Shown here: positions 4,803 through 36,895 of the stretch, one piece after another | Layout: every line of letters begins with the position of its first letter | How positions within the stretch are numbered: the first letter of the stretch is position 1 | Source of the DNA: Paenibacillus polysaccharolyticus | GTDB lineage: Bacteria > Bacillota > Bacilli > Paenibacillales > Paenibacillaceae | Direction: 5' to 3' | Assembly (NCBI RefSeq): GCF_900102085.1 | Contig: NZ_FMVM01000013.1 | Coordinates: forward strand, 62,001-126,000 | DNA length: 64,000 nucleotides | Program-made: the position numbers and the translations under genes | The notes under the pieces: model-generated | What the model was told of the DNA's origin: nothing | What the model saw: the letters and a program-made list of their open reading frames with translations, nothing else | Database searches by the model: none

Positions 4803-6050
4803 ATGAGCAGAGAGCACGAAAAGGTACAACAACCCTCGTTAGAGGACAAGCATGATCATGCGGCGGTAGAGAGAGCTGAGGTGGAACACAATACAGCCTT
4901 TTGGGATGTCAGAGCACTTTTGCATGAGCAGAGTGAGGGCGAGAACATAAATGTGCACGTTCAAGAGATTTCCCCAGTATCGGATGTGAAAAAGGGGAGC
5001 GCCGCCCGCGAAGCGGCGCTCGCTGACTTGCAGGCTGCCGCGGCCTGCCTTCGTCAAGGGGGGACGGTTGCCTTCCCGACCGAGACGGTCTACGGCCTCG
5101 GCGCAGACGCTCGCAGCACGGAAGCAGTGGAGGCGGTATTTGCCGCCAAAGGGCGGCCATCCGACAATCCGCTGATTGTGCATATCGCGCACCGTGACCA
5201 GCTGCATGAACTGGTCACTGAGGTGAATGCAACAGCGGAAGCGCTGATGGCGGCCTTCTGGCCGGGCCCGCTGACGCTGGTGCTGCCGGTTAGGCCAGGG
5301 GCGGTGTCCCCGCGGGTCACTGCCGGGCTGGACACGGTGGCCGTGCGCATGCCGGACCACCCGGTGGCGCTGCCACTCATTGCGGCGGCGGCATGCCCCG
5401 TGGCTGCGCCAAGTGCGAACCGCTCCGGGCGGCCTAGCCCAACCCTCGCCGCACATGTGCGGGAGGATCTGGATGGCCGCATCGGCGGCATTGTGGACGG
5501 CGGCCCCACGGGAGTGGGCGTCGAGTCCACCGTGGTGCAGGCCGGTGACGACGGTACCGTCACCATCCTGCGCCCTGGCGGCATCACGGCGGAACAGCTG
5601 TCCGCCGTAGCCGCCCGTGTCGCCACGGACCCGGCGCTTCTCGCCGAAGGGTCCGGTGGCGACAGCACTAGCCCGGCGCCGCGCTCGCCGGGCATGAAGT
5701 ACACGCACTACGCACCCGCAGGGGCGCTGTGCGTCGTAGAGGGGCCGCCCGCAGCGGTGGCGGCCTGGACCCGCGCCGCCCTGGCGGAGGCGGCACAGCG
5801 CGGGGAGCGTACCGCGGTGCTGGCGTTCACCGAGCACGTGGAGCAGTACCGCGCCGATGCCGTATTCTCGCTGGGTAACGCCAGCGAGCTACAGGAAGCT
5901 GCGCGCAGGCTATACGCCGCGCTGCGCAGCTGCGATGAGCAGGGAGCCACATATATTGTGGCGGAAGCCTGCTCGCGCGAAGGGCTGGGAGCAGCCGTCA
6001 TGAACCGGCTGCTCAAGGCGGCAGGCAACCAACTTATTCAAGTTGGCTGA
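4803..6050 (+). CDS. ywlC: L-threonylcarbamoyladenylate synthase (Sua5/YwlC) with N-terminal extension
   Basis: Makes threonylcarbamoyl-AMP from threonine, bicarbonate and ATP, the first step of t6A modification of ANN-decoding tRNAs. The YrdC domain begins near residue 68: PTETVYGLG (about 92-100), KGRPSDNPL (about 116-124), SANRSGRPSPT and GVESTVV; the C-terminal Sua5 domain begins at the linker RSPGMKYTHYAP. The roughly 65-residue N-terminus is charged, unlike the family, and has ordinary base composition; from about 4995 onwards, where the conserved domain begins, the gene is strikingly G+C rich. AGGG at 4787-4790 is too close to ATGs 4791 and 4794, so ATG 4803 is preferred, though the start could be later. 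Long antisense frames here are composition artefacts. Confidence 0.93.
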   Translation: MSREHEKVQQPSLEDKHDHAAVERAEVEHNTAFWDVRALLHEQSEGENINVHVQEISPVSDVKKGSAAREAALADLQAAAACLRQGGTVAFPTETVYGLGADARSTEAVEAVFAAKGRPSDNPLIVHIAHRDQLHELVTEVNATAEALMAAFWPGPLTLVLPVRPGAVSPRVTAGLDTVAVRMPDHPVALPLIAAAACPVAAPSANRSGRPSPTLAAHVREDLDGRIGGIVDGGPTGVGVESTVVQAGDDGTVTILRPGGITAEQLSAVAARVATDPALLAEGSGGDSTSPAPRSPGMKYTHYAPAGALCVVEGPPAAVAAWTRAALAEAAQRGERTAVLAFTEHVEQYRADAVFSLGNASELQEAARRLYAALRSCDEQGATYIVAEACSREGLGAAVMNRLLKAAGNQLIQVG

Positions 6051-7599: not shown

Positions 7600-7717
7600 A
7601 GGGATCCGGTGTAACTGGCGACGAAGTGGGCACAACCACAATGGAGCACCGGAACAAACGGCCGGTCGCCTGGGCAAAAGAGCAATTCTGCGATACCCGC
7701 AGACTGCTCTTTTTTTC
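7600..7717 (+). promoter_or_regulatory. ZTP (pfl) riboswitch with expression-platform terminator
   Basis: The segment matches the pfl/ZTP aptamer: P1 CCGGTG (7605-7610) with CACCGG (7647-7652), the conserved AACTGGCG, the small hairpin GTGGG/CCAC, ATGGAGC, then the second subdomain with CGCCTGGGCA near 7667-7676. An intrinsic terminator follows directly: AGAGCA (7679-7684) with TGCTCT (7705-7710), inner TCTGCG/CGCAGA and a T run. ZTP signals folate shortage (10-formyl-THF), and this class commonly controls glyA, folD, fhs and purine genes. Here it lies upstream of ywlG and glyA, so it probably couples serine hydroxymethyltransferase to one-carbon status. Confidence 0.88.
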
Positions 7718-7738
7718 GTCTTTCATCTGATTTTTCGC

Positions 7739-7744
7739 TATAAT
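7739..7744 (+). promoter_or_regulatory. Possible secondary promoter after the ZTP terminator
   Basis: A perfect TATAAT at 7739-7744 without a convincing -35. It could give riboswitch-independent transcription of ywlG and glyA. Confidence 0.3.
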
Positions 7745-7788
7745 AGTACCTGAAATGCCATGCAACGTATGTGTAGAGCAAACCTTCA

Positions 7789-7985
7789 CTATATAAGTTG
7801 AACGATTCTTTTACACTTTAACGGAGAGGACAGAAAAAAACTGGAAAAGCGGAGCGGTCGCCTTTATCACCGGATTTTCCCCTTTAGAAAAGGGAAGCGA
7901 AAAAATCTGGGGATAACAGCGATTGGAAGGTTATTCTGTCATTGGAGTGGACTGTGTAAAAAAAGCTTTAGTTCAACTTGTATAG
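7789..7985 (+). repeat. Dispersed structured element, copy A
   Basis: 197-bp intergenic element. Termini: CTATATAAGTTGAAC (7789-7803) and its near complement GTTCAACTTGTATAG (7971-7985). Inside are TTTACAC/GTGTAAA, a helix GACAGAA (7829-7835) with TTCTGTC (7934-7940), a small hairpin GCGGAGCGGTCGC, and a core arm TTATCACC (7864-7871) with GGGGATAA (7909-7916) capped by CCCTTT/AAAGGG. The conserved GATAACAGCGATTGGAAGG follows. Sits between the ZTP riboswitch terminator and ywlG. Nearly the same sequence as copy F. No coding potential. I do not recognise a named family. Confidence 0.85.
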
Positions 7986-8018
7986 ATAGCGGGCATGATT
8001 TTATCGGGAGGCGATAGG

Positions 8019-8612
8019 ATGACTATTGAACTGGATTCAGAACAACCCGGATTGCAACAACAGACAGCATCAATCCTGCGCGAACTGGCGACAGCCGGTA
8101 AACTTGGCTCTGGCCATGTTGTTGTTATTGGCACGAGTACAAGTGAAGTTGCAGGTCAGCGCATCGGAACAAGTGGTGCCGTCGACGTGGCAGATCAGTT
8201 GCTTGCAGGTATTCGCGAGGTGCAGACAGAGTTTGGTTTCGACACTGTATTTCAGTGCTGTGAGCACCTGAACCGGGCGCTTGTGATGGAACGTAGGTTG
8301 CTTGAGCGGCTTGGACTGACAGAGGTTGGCGCTGTACCTGTGCCGAAAGCTGGTGGTTCCATGGCATCTACCGCCTATCGTTCACTGTCCGATCCATGTC
8401 TGGCTGAGCATGTCCAAGCCCATGCAGGTATGGATATCGGGGAGACTATGATTGGCATGCATCTTCGCCATGTTGCGGTTCCTTTTCGGACATCGCTTCG
8501 TTACATTGGAGAGGCTCGTGTTACAGCAGCACTTACACGTCCGAAACTGATTGGCGGCGAACGTGCGGTTTATCGAATGGAAGAACAACCTGATTCGACC
8601 TTTTGTGACTAA
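8019..8612 (+). CDS. ywlG: UPF0340/TIGR01440 family protein YwlG
   Basis: Conserved Firmicutes protein of unknown biochemical role, 197 residues. Recognised by VVVIGTSTSEV.G..IGT.GA, FQCCEHLNRALV.E and VPVPKAGGSMA, blocks of the YwlG family; soluble, no membrane segment. An upstream in-frame ATG exists at 7995, but GGGAGGCGAT (8006-8015) fits ATG 8019. It lies between ywlE and glyA as in Bacillus, although rpiB, which is next to ywlE in B. subtilis, is absent here. It is likely cotranscribed with glyA under the upstream ZTP riboswitch; copy B of the dispersed element separates the two. Confidence 0.88.
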   Translation: MTIELDSEQPGLQQQTASILRELATAGKLGSGHVVVIGTSTSEVAGQRIGTSGAVDVADQLLAGIREVQTEFGFDTVFQCCEHLNRALVMERRLLERLGLTEVGAVPVPKAGGSMASTAYRSLSDPCLAEHVQAHAGMDIGETMIGMHLRHVAVPFRTSLRYIGEARVTAALTRPKLIGGERAVYRMEEQPDSTFCD

Positions 8613-8615
8613 CGT

Positions 8616-8800
8616 ATAAAGTGAAATGATGTTTACACGTAAACGGAGAGTGCAACACCAATCTGGAGAAGCGAAGCGTTCACGTTTATCACCGAATTTC
8701 CCCTTTATCAAAGGGGTTCAAAGAAATTTGGGGATAACAGTGATCGTAAGATGGTGATGCAATCGAAGTCAGGAGTGTAACCTGAAGGCTCGCTTTATAA
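8616..8800 (+). repeat. Dispersed structured element, copy B
   Basis: Starts four bases after the ywlG stop and ends 15 bases before the glyA ribosome binding site. Termini TATAAAGTGA (8616-8625) and TCGCTTTATA (8791-8800); then TTTACAC/GTGTAAC. The inner helix TGCAACACCAATCT (8652-8665) with AGATGGTGATGCA (8750-8762) is entirely different in sequence from copy A but equally well paired. Core arm TTATCACCGAATTT (8687-8700) with AAATTTGGGGATAA (8725-8738), capped by CCCCTTT/AAAGGGG. GAAGCGAAGCGTTC small hairpin is conserved. Confidence 0.85.
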
Positions 8801-8829
8801 CTTCATTATAATTTAGGAGGAATTTAATC

Positions 8830-10077
8830 ATGGAACAATTGCGTAAAAATGACCCTGCAGTATTGGAAGCGATGAATCTTGAACTGAAACGTCAACAGAA
8901 CAACATCGAGCTGATCGCATCCGAGAACATCGTAAGTGAAGCGGTAATTGAAGCACTCGGCTCCGTTCTGACGAATAAGTACGCTGAAGGTTATCCAGGC
9001 AAACGTTACTATGGTGGCTGTGAGCATGTCGATATCGTTGAAGATATCGCGCGTGATCGTGCGAAAGAACTGTTTGGTGCAGAACATGCGAACGTGCAAC
9101 CGCACTCCGGTGCACAAGCGAACATGGCTGTATATCTGGCAGCATTGAAGCCTGGTGATACCGTTCTGGGTATGAACCTGGCACATGGCGGTCACTTGAC
9201 CCATGGTAGCCCGGTTAATGCTTCTGGTTTGCTTTACAACTTCGTTGCGTATGGTGTTCAAGAAGATACATTCCTCATTGATTATGATGAAGTTCGCAAA
9301 GCAGCATTCAAACATCGTCCTCGTCTGATCGTAGCAGGTGCAAGTGCATACCCACGTACGATTGATTTTGAAAAGCTGGCTTCCATCGCCAATGATGTTG
9401 GCGCGCTGTTCATGGTTGATATGGCACACATCGCAGGACTTGTTGCAGCTGGACTGCATCCTAACCCGGTGCCACATGCACACTTCGTTACAACAACAAC
9501 ACACAAAACATTGCGCGGACCACGTGGCGGTATGATCCTGTGCCGCAAGTCATGGGCAGCTGCCATTGATAAAGCGGTATTCCCAGGTTCCCAAGGTGGA
9601 CCTTTGATGCACGTGATCGCTTCAAAAGCTGTAGCGTTCGGTGAAGCATTGCAACCTTCGTTCAAAACGTATGCTCAGAACGTGGTGAAAAACGCACAGG
9701 TGCTGGCTGAAACATTGATCGCTGAAGGATTGAACATTGTATCCGGCGGTACAGACAATCACTTGATGCTGATTGATACTCGTAGCGTAAACATCACGGG
9801 TAAAGAAGCGGAACATGTGCTTGATTCCATCGGTATTACAGTGAACAAAAACGCGATTCCATTCGATCCAACAAGCCCGTTCATTACAAGCGGTATCCGT
9901 ATTGGTACACCTGCTGCGACTTCCCGTGGTATGGACGAGAAAGCAATGGTAGCAATCGGTAAGATCATTGCGAAAACTCTTAAAAATCCAAAAGATACAG
10001 CAACACTTGATCAGGCACGCGCAGAAGTGACTGCACTGACGGATCAATACCCACTCTACACCGACCTTAAATACTAG
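8830..10077 (+). CDS. glyA: Serine hydroxymethyltransferase
   Basis: PLP enzyme that interconverts serine plus tetrahydrofolate with glycine plus 5,10-methylene-THF, the main one-carbon source. 415 residues, the normal length. Visible: substrate-binding [28 protein letters not shown], and the PLP lysine Lys226 in [14 protein letters not shown]-terminal [22 protein letters not shown] (8815-8822) places the ATG at 8830. Upstream are copy B, ywlG and the ZTP riboswitch, consistent with folate-responsive control. No anomalies. Confidence 0.98.
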
Positions 10078-10094
10078 TATTACTTATAAATATT

Positions 10095-10288
10095 GCTCTG
10101 CTGTTTGGTTTTGAAGGTTGTTAAAATGGAATACAGAGGAACGAAGTGAGCAGAATGAGGCCGTAGAAGCGAAGCGCTCGCATTTATTCCCGAATTTTTA
10201 CCTACCTAAGGTGATTCATAAAATTCGGGGATAACGGCGATCGAAGGAGCATTCTGGTGGCGGAGTGGTATTGTATTACAAAAGAGCA
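10095..10288 (+). repeat. Dispersed structured element, copy C (diverged ends)
   Basis: Core conserved, ends diverged. Outer GCTCT/AGAGC (10095-10099, 10284-10288) and a partial TTGTTAAAATGGAATAC/GGTATTGTATTACAA pairing. Inner helix GCAGAATG (10150-10157) with CATTCTG (10250-10256), again a different sequence from other copies. Conserved GTAGAAGCGAAGCGCTCGC. Core arm TTATTCCCGAATTTT (10184-10198) with AAAATTCGGGGATAA (10220-10234). The cap is CCTACCTAAGG instead of CCCTTT..AAAGGG. Follows glyA. Confidence 0.75.
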
Positions 10289-10341
10289 TCTTTAGTGTTC
10301 ACGCGTATTTTGAGCATTCAACTCACACAACAGCACGAGCA

Positions 10342-10379
10342 AACAGGACCGGATGAATCATTTTCCGGTCCTGTTTTTG
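10342..10379 (+). terminator. Rho-independent terminator after glyA and copy C
   Basis: AACAGGACCGG (10342-10352) with CCGGTCCTGTT (10365-10375) and a T run. It ends the glyA transcript. Confidence 0.92.
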
Positions 10380-10439
10380 TAGGATTTGCTTTTCTGTAAT
10401 GATTAGGTGCCCTTTGATGGTGTAATTCAGTGTGGGTGA

Positions 10440-24677: not shown

Positions 24678-24908
24678 GCTATATATGTGGAAAGTGAGAG
24701 CGTACGGGGAGAGCAGGGGACAGAAAAGACCTGTAGAAGCGAAGCTGAAAGCTTTTTAAAAAAAGCTGCATCGGAAGCATAAACTTGCCTTTACTACCGG
24801 ATTTCACCTTTGAAGAAGGGGAGATCGAAGAAATTCGGTAGTAACAGCGGTCGGAAGGTTTTCTGGCCCCGGAGCGGCGCACGCACTATCACTTTACGCA
24901 TATATAGC
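24678..24908 (+). repeat. Dispersed structured element, copy D (longest, best termini)
   Basis: 231 bp. Terminal inverted repeats of about 28 bases begin GCTATATATG (24678-24687) and end CATATATAGC (24899-24908); internal differences are largely compensated or G-U. Inner helix GACAGAAAAGACC with GGTTTTCTG (24858-24865). Conserved TGTAGAAGCGAAGC, here with an enlarged arm GCTGAAAGC.. to 24779. Core arm TTACTACCGGATTTC (24791-24805) with GAAATTCGGTAGTAA (24830-24844): compared with other copies, TTATC/GATAA has become TTACTA/TAGTAA, paired on both sides. Between spoIID and spoIIQ. Confidence 0.85.
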
Positions 24909-29815: not shown

Positions 29816-30001
29816 CATGCTCGTTTAATGTTTTCCGCACTACAGTAAGTGGAGGGAAGAGAATTGTTCAAAAGAAGCAAAGCGCTCGCGTTTGTCACAG
29901 AATTTTACCCTTTATAATGGGATCAAAAAAATTCAGGGACAATGGCGATCATAGAACAATCTCTTTCCGAAACGACGCTATTGCGCCGGCATTATTGCAT
30001 G
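29816..30001 (+). repeat. Dispersed structured element, copy E
   Basis: 186 bp upstream of fabZ. Outer CATGC (29816-29820)/GCATG (29997-30001) and TAATG/CATTA. Inner helix AAGAGAATTGTTC with GAACAATCTCTT (one bulge). Core arm TTGTCACAGAATTTT (29892-29906) with AAAATTCAGGGACAA (29928-29942): the TTATC/GATAA of other copies has changed to TTGTC/GACAA, a compensatory A-U to G-C change. Conserved GAAGCAAAGCGCTCGCG hairpin and CCCTTTATAATGGG cap. Confidence 0.82.
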
Positions 30002-30501: not shown

Positions 30502-30688
30502 ATAAGTTGTACTAATTCTTTACACTTAAACGGAGAGGACAGAGAAAACCTGAAAAAGCGAAGCGTTCGCCTTTATCACCGGATTTTTGCCTTTTAGAAA
30601 AGGGAATACAAAAAATATGGGGATAACAGCAATTGGAAGGTTGCTCTGTCATTGGAGTGGACGTGTAAATATCTTTAGTCCAACTTAT
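30502..30688 (+). repeat. Dispersed structured element, copy F
   Basis: 187 bp between fabZ and the phosphoglucomutase gene, close kin of copy A. Termini ATAAGTTGTACTAA (30502-30515) and TTAGTCCAACTTAT (30675-30688); TTTACAC/GTGTAAA. Inner helix GACAGAG (30538-30544) with CTCTGTC (30644-30650); copy A has GACAGAA/TTCTGTC, so both sides changed together. Core TTATCACC (30573-30580)/GGGGATAA (30619-30626). GCGAAGCGTTCGC small hairpin is perfect here. Confidence 0.85.
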
Positions 30689-36716: not shown

Positions 36717-36895
36717 AGGCACTCCCGCTAAAGGAGCTGTTACACTTCATTACTACGATTGCAAGAGAACCTTCGATCGCCCTTATCCCCAAATTTCTAT
36801 TTATCCTTGTTCAAGGATGAAATTCGGTGATAAAAGCGAACGCTTCGCTTCTACAGGTTTTCCCTTGCACTCTTCGTACCGTGTAACTGTTGCCT
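36717..36895 (-). repeat. Dispersed structured element, copy G (inverted)
   Basis: 179 bp between tagA and tagO, in the opposite orientation to the other six copies. In + strand terms: AGGC/GCCT ends, GTTACAC/GTGTAAC, inner helix GCAAGAGAACC (36761-36771) with GGTTTTCCCTTGC (36856-36868), core TTATCCCCAAATTTC (36783-36797) with GAAATTCGGTGATAA (36819-36833), cap ATCCTTGTTCAAGGAT, and the AGCGAACGCTTCGCTT small hairpin. Minus-strand reading gives the conserved GTAGAAGCGAAGCGTTCGC. Confidence 0.82.

Follow-up and report, generated by a model that had tools for sequence, protein, structure and literature searches.

Covarying arms, in-place inversion and strand-specific folding in an intergenic hairpin repeat of Paenibacillaceae

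The 217-nt gap between a DUF436 gene (7995-8612) and glyA (SHMT, 8830-10077) in Paenibacillus polysaccharolyticus raises the question of whether matched changes on the two arms of a repeated hairpin reflect selection on a folded molecule or the way in which such a repeat mutates. An earlier note, made from the letters alone, had claimed that pairing and not sequence is kept in this element, and that two-sided changes at many positions are hard to explain without selection on a folded RNA or a hairpin DNA. The present analysis covers the whole stretch of 64,000 nt in which the gap lies (hereafter the window) together with the rest of the genome and its relatives.

Positions 8616-8800 are copy B of an imperfect hairpin repeat of roughly 140-190 nt, of which nhmmer and a covariance model (R1) found seven copies, A to G, in the window. 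Copy B lies on the + strand (8615-8799, core 8632-8770) between outer arms TATAAAGTGAA (8615-8625) and TCGCTTTATA (8790-8799), the right one containing TTTAT. Further in come the GTTTACAC arm (8631-8638), which pairs with GTGTAAC at 8775-8781 in the computed fold, the GGA side (8645-8647) of a conserved GNA/GNA internal loop whose partner is GAA at 8765-8767, the left strand TGCAACACCAATCT (8651-8664) of the covarying helix with its partner at 8749-8761, the conserved AAGCGAAGC (8669-8677), the core arm TTTATC (8685-8690) facing GATAA at 8733-8737, and an apical hairpin CCCCTTT/AAAGGGG (8700-8716). The inner helix, TGCAACACCAATCT/AGATGGTGATGCA, holds an A.A mismatch and a bulged A. Copy B folds with a z-score of -3.7 as RNA and -4.7 as DNA; the weakest-folding copy of the window is F (z -1.8). 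The other + strand copies are A (core 7810-7949, ends at about 7789 and 7985), C (core 10130-10267, in the slot between glyA and upp), D (24700-24876, with an optional hairpin module; its left end was extended by inspection, R1 alone giving 24732-24876), E (29839-29974) and F (30519-30659), and copy G (36751-36887) lies on the - strand.

This repeat is abundant and confined, as far as it was searched, to one family. The genome itself holds at least 147 R1 matches at E <= 0.01, one of them partial (best 150 of 2419 candidates scored), and at least 42 repeat places by blastn (40 of 119 candidates scored); the complete genome G015 holds at least 148 at E <= 1e-4 (best 150 of 2525 scored). With stricter filters for searches spanning more than 40 genomes, and with match counts that are lower bounds because only the best 54 (genus), 22 (family) or 13 (class) candidates per genome were scored, the repeat was found in 60 of the 60 Paenibacillus genomes searched, own genome included (1 to at least 54 matches each, 36 genomes having at least 54 scored matches apiece), and in 121 of 148 genomes of the family, representing 13 of 19 genera. 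The draw from the class gave 22 matched genomes out of 250, every one within Paenibacillaceae, and no R1 match outside that family. A pattern scan of named loci gave at least 117 stretches, and the 80 named loci listed are all from Paenibacillus. One P. xylanexedens locus is 100% identical to genome G026 of the genus where they match. Five genomes of the genus (G005, G017, G020, G042 and G051) have just 1-6 matches each, and may have lost the repeat or never have been invaded.

A plasmid collection contained the repeat in one record, from Paenibacillus sp. IHB B 3084; the phage collection searched gave no match, and carriage by phages was rejected on that ground. Rfam returned nothing at the repeat copies when the whole window was scanned at gathering scores, and one weak, chance-level match up to E 5 in 7700-10400 (copies A, B and C); a known Rfam family was rejected, since these searches gave no match above the curated score. 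The sole Rfam match in the window at gathering scores reaches 56 bits and is a ZTP (ZMP/ZTP) riboswitch at 7601-7682, which precedes both copy A and the DUF436 gene. No earlier report of the repeat was found in the open-access literature searched, literature on Paenibacillus repeats included, although a description may exist elsewhere. The repeat is most likely a structured, MITE-like intergenic repeat of the bcr1/Correia/ERIC kind. Copies can also stand in tandem arrays of three to four in the own genome (L403-L405; C11:17965-18893, C15:26204-26785 and C31:222925-223516), the first two arrays stopping shortly upstream of a likely gene start. A 391-bp piece at C23:307300-307790 (L399) has the ends of the repeat, but its interior is unrelated and likewise folds strongly. 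At 5490-5710 of locus L158 there is a different insertion, some 220 nt long and bounded by the inverted ends GTTCAAAAAGTC / GACTTTTTGAAC. It recurs in L265-L267, is missing from most of the other relatives shown and represents another MITE-like family.

The arms quoted in the earlier note are all present in the sequence: the inner helix reads GACAGAA/TTCTGTC in A, GACAGAG/CTCTGTC in F, GCAGAATG/CATTCTG in C and AAGAGAATTGTTC/GAACAATCTCTT in E, beside the form of copy B given above, and the core arm changes from TTATC/GATAA to TTGTC/GACAA (E) and TTACTA/TAGTAA (D). To put numbers on such changes, 45 cores of the own genome (from 48 hits, after dropping two truncated L036 pieces and omitting copy D for its insertion) were aligned with MAFFT using no structure, and 36 pairs were scored (alignment A1). 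Of the 1620 cells, 96.7% pair, against 91.4% in shuffled columns and 37-51% with the partner slid. Two-sided changes occur at 20 of the 36 pairs (7.0 +/- 1.4 shuffled, 4-13 slid) and in 78 cells (15.1 shuffled, 9-17 slid), values that none of 500 shuffles reached. On a FastTree tree with Fitch changes, which is weak since it is built from short palindromic repeats, 43 two-sided events lead from pair to pair (1-6 in slid controls), and two-sided events of any kind number 53 (17-27 slid). In 105 copies from named Paenibacillus loci (alignment A4, which was fitted to the covariance model), 30 of 36 pairs are two-sided against 15.3 shuffled, with 347 two-sided cells against 84.7. Covariation in the repeat is therefore real and beyond chance, and chance palindromes were rejected on the same shuffled and slid controls.

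The earlier note had proposed to count two-sided against one-sided substitutions, and to abandon its claim if the latter proved as common. One-sided changes are indeed as common: the 78 two-sided cells stand beside 52 one-sided paired and 53 unpaired ones, and the 43 events on the tree beside 32 one-sided pair-keeping and 35 pair-breaking ones. We judge that yardstick poor, since the slid controls yield so few pair-keeping two-sided events. It should also be emphasized that 40 of the 78 cells fall in four columns (21, 22, 30 and 33), largely as one shared haplotype. At pairs with a Watson-Crick consensus, GU wobbles outnumber AC by 28 to 10 in A1 and by 78 to 43 in A4, these tallies counting cells and not independent events.

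Pairing is not all that is kept. In the GNA/GNA internal loop, whose middle position is free, G.A is retained in 98 and A.G in 102 of the 105 copies; 87 of these copies carry AAGCGAAGC without any change. A mismatch at 51-120 is kept in 38 of the 45 A1 copies. The inner A.G mismatch is not general: 40 of these 45 copies keep it, but in A4 the position is paired in 62 of the 105 copies. When orthologs of one slot are compared, AAGCGAAGC is more conserved than the stems in three of five slots (C, D and E) and not in B and G. The claim that pairing is kept thus stands, including for orthologs at fixed sites, whereas its second half, that sequence is not, is too strong, because the loop and AAGCGAAGC are themselves conserved.

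Fixed sites could be followed in eight relatives whose fetched stretches are largely syntenic with the window (19 kb in G002, most of the window in the others). All eight species with data (own genome and seven relatives) have a copy in slots D, E and G. Slot C is filled in the own genome and six relatives and empty in G003 and G011. These four slots show a single orientation wherever they are filled: + for C, D and E, - for G. Slot A is filled in the own genome and at locus L125 and in none of the eight other relatives, and copy F has no counterpart in any of the relatives compared. Two-sided pairs were seen within the old slots at 7 of 64 (B), 12 of 55 (C), 7 of 54 (D), 20 of 61 (E) and 10 of 56 pairs (G). 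Summed over these five slots there are 108 two-sided cells, 103 one-sided paired cells, 44 AC and 109 other mismatches, in structures that were derived from the same slot alignments and so lean towards pairing. Such covariation inside slots indicates that pairing was followed after insertion, though with breaks; that non-standard cells (the AC and the other mismatches) outnumber two-sided ones speaks against a selected RNA.

Slot B behaves differently from the other four. It is + in the own genome, G015, G003 and G011, - in G001, G002, G008 and G012, and empty in G010. The sequence GATGGTGATGCAATC is shared by six of the eight B-slot copies and was found once among 117 other loci, at L149, which is again a B slot. 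The flanks are unturned, and parsimony on a tree of 6.4 kb requires at least two inversions among the six copies with GATGGTGATGCAATC and three among all eight. The sharpest case is L125 (P. xylanexedens DE0019), which is absent from that tree. Here, 5.2 kb round B align straight with the window at 92.7% identity (DUF436 93.9%, glyA 94.7%), and cores A and C lie the same way round in both (93.6% and 92.9% identical), whereas the B core is 89.2% identical when inverted and 54.0% as it stands. The inverted segment is exactly 8615-8799, with the outer arms as its bounds. Since L125, G001 and G012 are all -, it is probably the own copy of the window that flipped. Furthermore, the flips of B between species make it unlikely that the repeat serves glyA in a strand-specific way.

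PMC8604942 describes how template switching between inverted arms homogenises the arms and inverts the spacer, and at hairpins such switching is a published source of multibase compensatory changes (PMC8794818). An inversion of exactly the length of B fits what template switching between hairpin arms predicts. Other changes come as blocks. At slot 5939 of L158, L269 is the same in the outer stems and differs in the inner hairpin as a block. At slot 845 of L158, near-identical orthologs differ in whether they carry a module of about 38 nt; L282 has it at a second point, and L284 has it at the first and the second point alike. What separates the B copies of L211 and L213 is this module together with a few single changes. 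The own genome gave 30 module matches: 28 fall within a match to the repeat, one overlaps such a match and one stands beside a truncated repeat. A free-standing module was rejected on the count of 28. Because of block change and module gain or loss, the counts of two-sided cells overstate the number of independent events.

These observations are the best case for the strongest rival, in which the two-sided changes are purely mutational, made by DNA template switching between the arms and by exchange between copies, with no selected RNA. The inversion in L125 inside straight flanks, the two or more flips among the six slot orthologs, the block difference between L158 and L269, the published multibase changes and the frequent pairing of the inner A.G mismatch all suit it. 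Copying of one arm from the other should nevertheless mend mismatches, and the G.A and A.G of the internal loop and the 51-120 mismatch persist in most copies; nor does this account predict the asymmetry between strands in wobbles and folding energy, or the sense bias described below. We therefore regard it as unlikely, though worth keeping in mind. The earlier statement that two-sided changes are hard to explain without selection on a folded RNA or hairpin DNA went too far, given the block changes, the clustering in four columns, template switching and the inversion of B; selection on a folded single strand is still favoured, in view of strand-specific folding and the unrepaired G.A mismatches.

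The + strand of the repeat folds better in 102 of 112 copies, by 5.6 kcal/mol on average, and its fold is also the more stable one in 35 of 40 slot orthologs. Gene context was read for the same 112 copies with a simple longest-ORF caller, after omission of 15 of 120 hits (ten shadows on the opposite strand, four weak hits and one truncated by the end of its locus); the copies are not independent, since some loci are orthologous. Between tandem genes, 59 are sense and 11 antisense; 12 copies are divergent and 11 convergent, nine lie at locus edges and ten overlap a called ORF. Sense tandem copies lie at a median of 54 nt after the upstream stop and 65 nt before the next start. The 11 convergent copies argue against selection on an RNA. 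In all eight species, copy G runs antisense to the genes on either side, and its + strand still folds better in seven of them, so transcription of the neighbours cannot be the whole reason for the fold of the + strand.

Replication could also impose a strand. In G015, 115 of 148 copies run with replication and 33 against, assuming the origin at coordinate 0. Context was read, with the same caller, for all 33 of the latter and for 67 of the 115 former. Copies running with replication comprise 47 tandem sense, two tandem antisense, nine divergent, five convergent and four overlapping, and those against it seven tandem sense, 14 tandem antisense, ten convergent and two overlapping. Tandem pairs on the leading strand have 47 copies with and 14 against replication, those on the lagging strand two and seven (Fisher p 0.002 on raw counts), which indicates that gene strand matters beyond replication, on as few as nine lagging-strand pairs. 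Altogether, the strand data fit selection on the fold of the + strand, RNA being the best candidate; single-stranded DNA is also possible, as B folds as DNA.

The latter possibility takes a definite form in a second rival, where the folded strand would be the ssDNA substrate of a Y1/HUH transposase of REP/IS200 type and selection would act on mobilisation. The z-score of B as DNA and the excess of G015 copies running with replication are in line with it, and one-strand G.T wobbles would persist in DNA hairpins too. Against it, orientation tracks genes beyond replication, covariation goes on after insertion, and Y1_Tnp was found in only 40 of 75 genomes of the genus, with one gene in the own genome and none in G015 for all its repeats, although a past presence is conceivable. 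We hold this reading to be quite improbable. Among the same 75 genomes, RVT_1 occurs in 44 and is without match in the own genome; neither a Y1 transposase nor a reverse transcriptase was accepted as an evident present partner, given G015 without Y1 and the own genome without RVT_1.

Site states carry the argument for mobility, since neither a general target duplication nor an autonomous element was found. Among 29 relatives at slot 845 of L158, 19 are filled, nine empty and one has the arms only. Young copies have 17-nt terminal inverted repeats, CTATATAAGTTGAACTA and its complement, which are eroded in old copies. The 103 entries scored for target duplication, some of which are false ends or the same copy read from either strand, showed no direct repeat of fixed length beyond the inverted ends; single flanking direct repeats exist, such as TATAGAT at the L280 site. 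The own genome has 96 end matches with two mismatches at most (six for a reversed control pattern) and no unexplained inverted end pair 0.6-4 kb apart that would suggest an autonomous element: in candidate pairs such as those at C17:195236 and C29:114965, a lone end stands next to a copy that is either complete or deleted, and several short pairs are internally deleted copies. In about 1.6 Mb of loci, three of 125 end matches lie away from a core, and the one examined is a deleted copy. In 33 of the 45 cores at least one frame stays open across about 140 nt; five different frames are involved, the commonest in 20. A copy at L028 is flanked, unlike most others listed, by a 9-nt direct repeat GAGATAGAT. 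In another subset (L019, L130, L135, L306 and others) the outer arms are GTTCAACTA with TAGTTGAAC-like partners where other copies have GTTGAACTA and TAGTTCAAC; this is a transversion matched on both sides of the terminal repeat.

The sense bias, the short distance to the next start and the conserved loops would all be explained if the repeat were an ordinary cis-regulatory RNA of the genes downstream (a riboswitch, a leader or an attenuator). The downstream neighbours in the window are unrelated to one another (DUF436, SHMT, UPRTase, an M23 peptidase, a FabA-like protein and phosphoglucomutase), the copies flip, come and go between relatives, and Rfam gave no match, all of which makes this explanation very improbable; a riboswitch of one pathway was rejected on the unrelated genes. 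In 7700-10400, three terminator-like sites (2.2 in shuffles), none within B, and promoter-like sites at shuffle level also count against it, and a terminator was rejected. SINE-like mobilisation through RNA by a reverse transcriptase, which the sense bias and RNA-like fold would suit, is the least credible of all, as the own genome lacks an RVT_1 match and terminal inverted repeats suit DNA elements better.

On balance, we think it probable that the repeat is a non-autonomous, Paenibacillaceae-wide element and that selection acts on the fold of its + strand, probably in the form of RNA, with template switching and block exchange supplying the matched changes. Template switching and exchange between copies would make changes on both arms at once, and selection would then retain the versions able to fold. 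The + strand would be selected as a folded single strand, most likely RNA in the leader of the downstream gene or between cistrons, where a self-closing hairpin may be tolerated and, by analogy, may serve as a site of mRNA processing or stability; such roles are reported for Correia, ERIC and bcr3.

Known repeats offer parallels, for bcr1 and ERIC by description only. The bcr1 element of the Bacillus cereus group is described as a MITE-like intergenic repeat with up to 130 copies per strain, many of which lie in UTRs or between cistrons; it is confined to a single taxon and is listed as a family with a common fold (PMC6542083, PMC3446304, PMC2267715). Repeats of TTTAT are linked to mobility in bcr1, and the TTTAT in the right arm of copy B may be fortuitous. 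The present repeat resembles it in being MITE-like, intergenic, single-taxon and of common fold, and differs in its taxon, having no R1 match outside Paenibacillaceae in the class draw. Correia elements of Neisseria are reported to be short, to have terminal inverted repeats, to lie mostly just upstream of genes and to be processed by RNase III in mRNA (PMC10969869), and in-place inversion is reported for them (PMC10969869, its reference 52). The likeness, in terminal inverted repeats and in-place inversion, is one of behaviour; the host differs, and here the flip was seen between species, at one of five old slots, and not in culture. ERIC of enterobacteria, intergenic, with tens to hundreds of copies and a reported effect on mRNA decay (PMC10969869), is likewise intergenic and of high copy number in another host. 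REP/REPIN sequences, reported as 20-40 bp long with GTAG or CGTC tags and Y1 transposases (PMC3733652, PMC3116915), are similarly palindromic, extragenic and numerous. In contrast, the present repeat is 140-190 nt long, and 35 of the 75 genomes of the genus have no Y1_Tnp match.

A bolder view is that of a mobile, modular structured-RNA family that spreads among the genomes of Paenibacillaceae, settles sense a short way before gene starts, swaps whole hairpin modules, flips reversibly by template switching and has its fold selected as RNA; we offer it as speculative and, taken as a whole, rather unlikely. Compensatory change in repeats does not by itself prove RNA function, and this calls for caution. 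Covariation, inversion and unrepaired mismatches occur here in the same copies, so that the choice between selection and template switching becomes testable, and copies can be traced at fixed sites, since each of the eight species with data has one in slots D, E and G. If a mobile structured RNA is indeed at work, orthologous copies of this repeat could separate covariation made by mutation from covariation made by selection, event by event.
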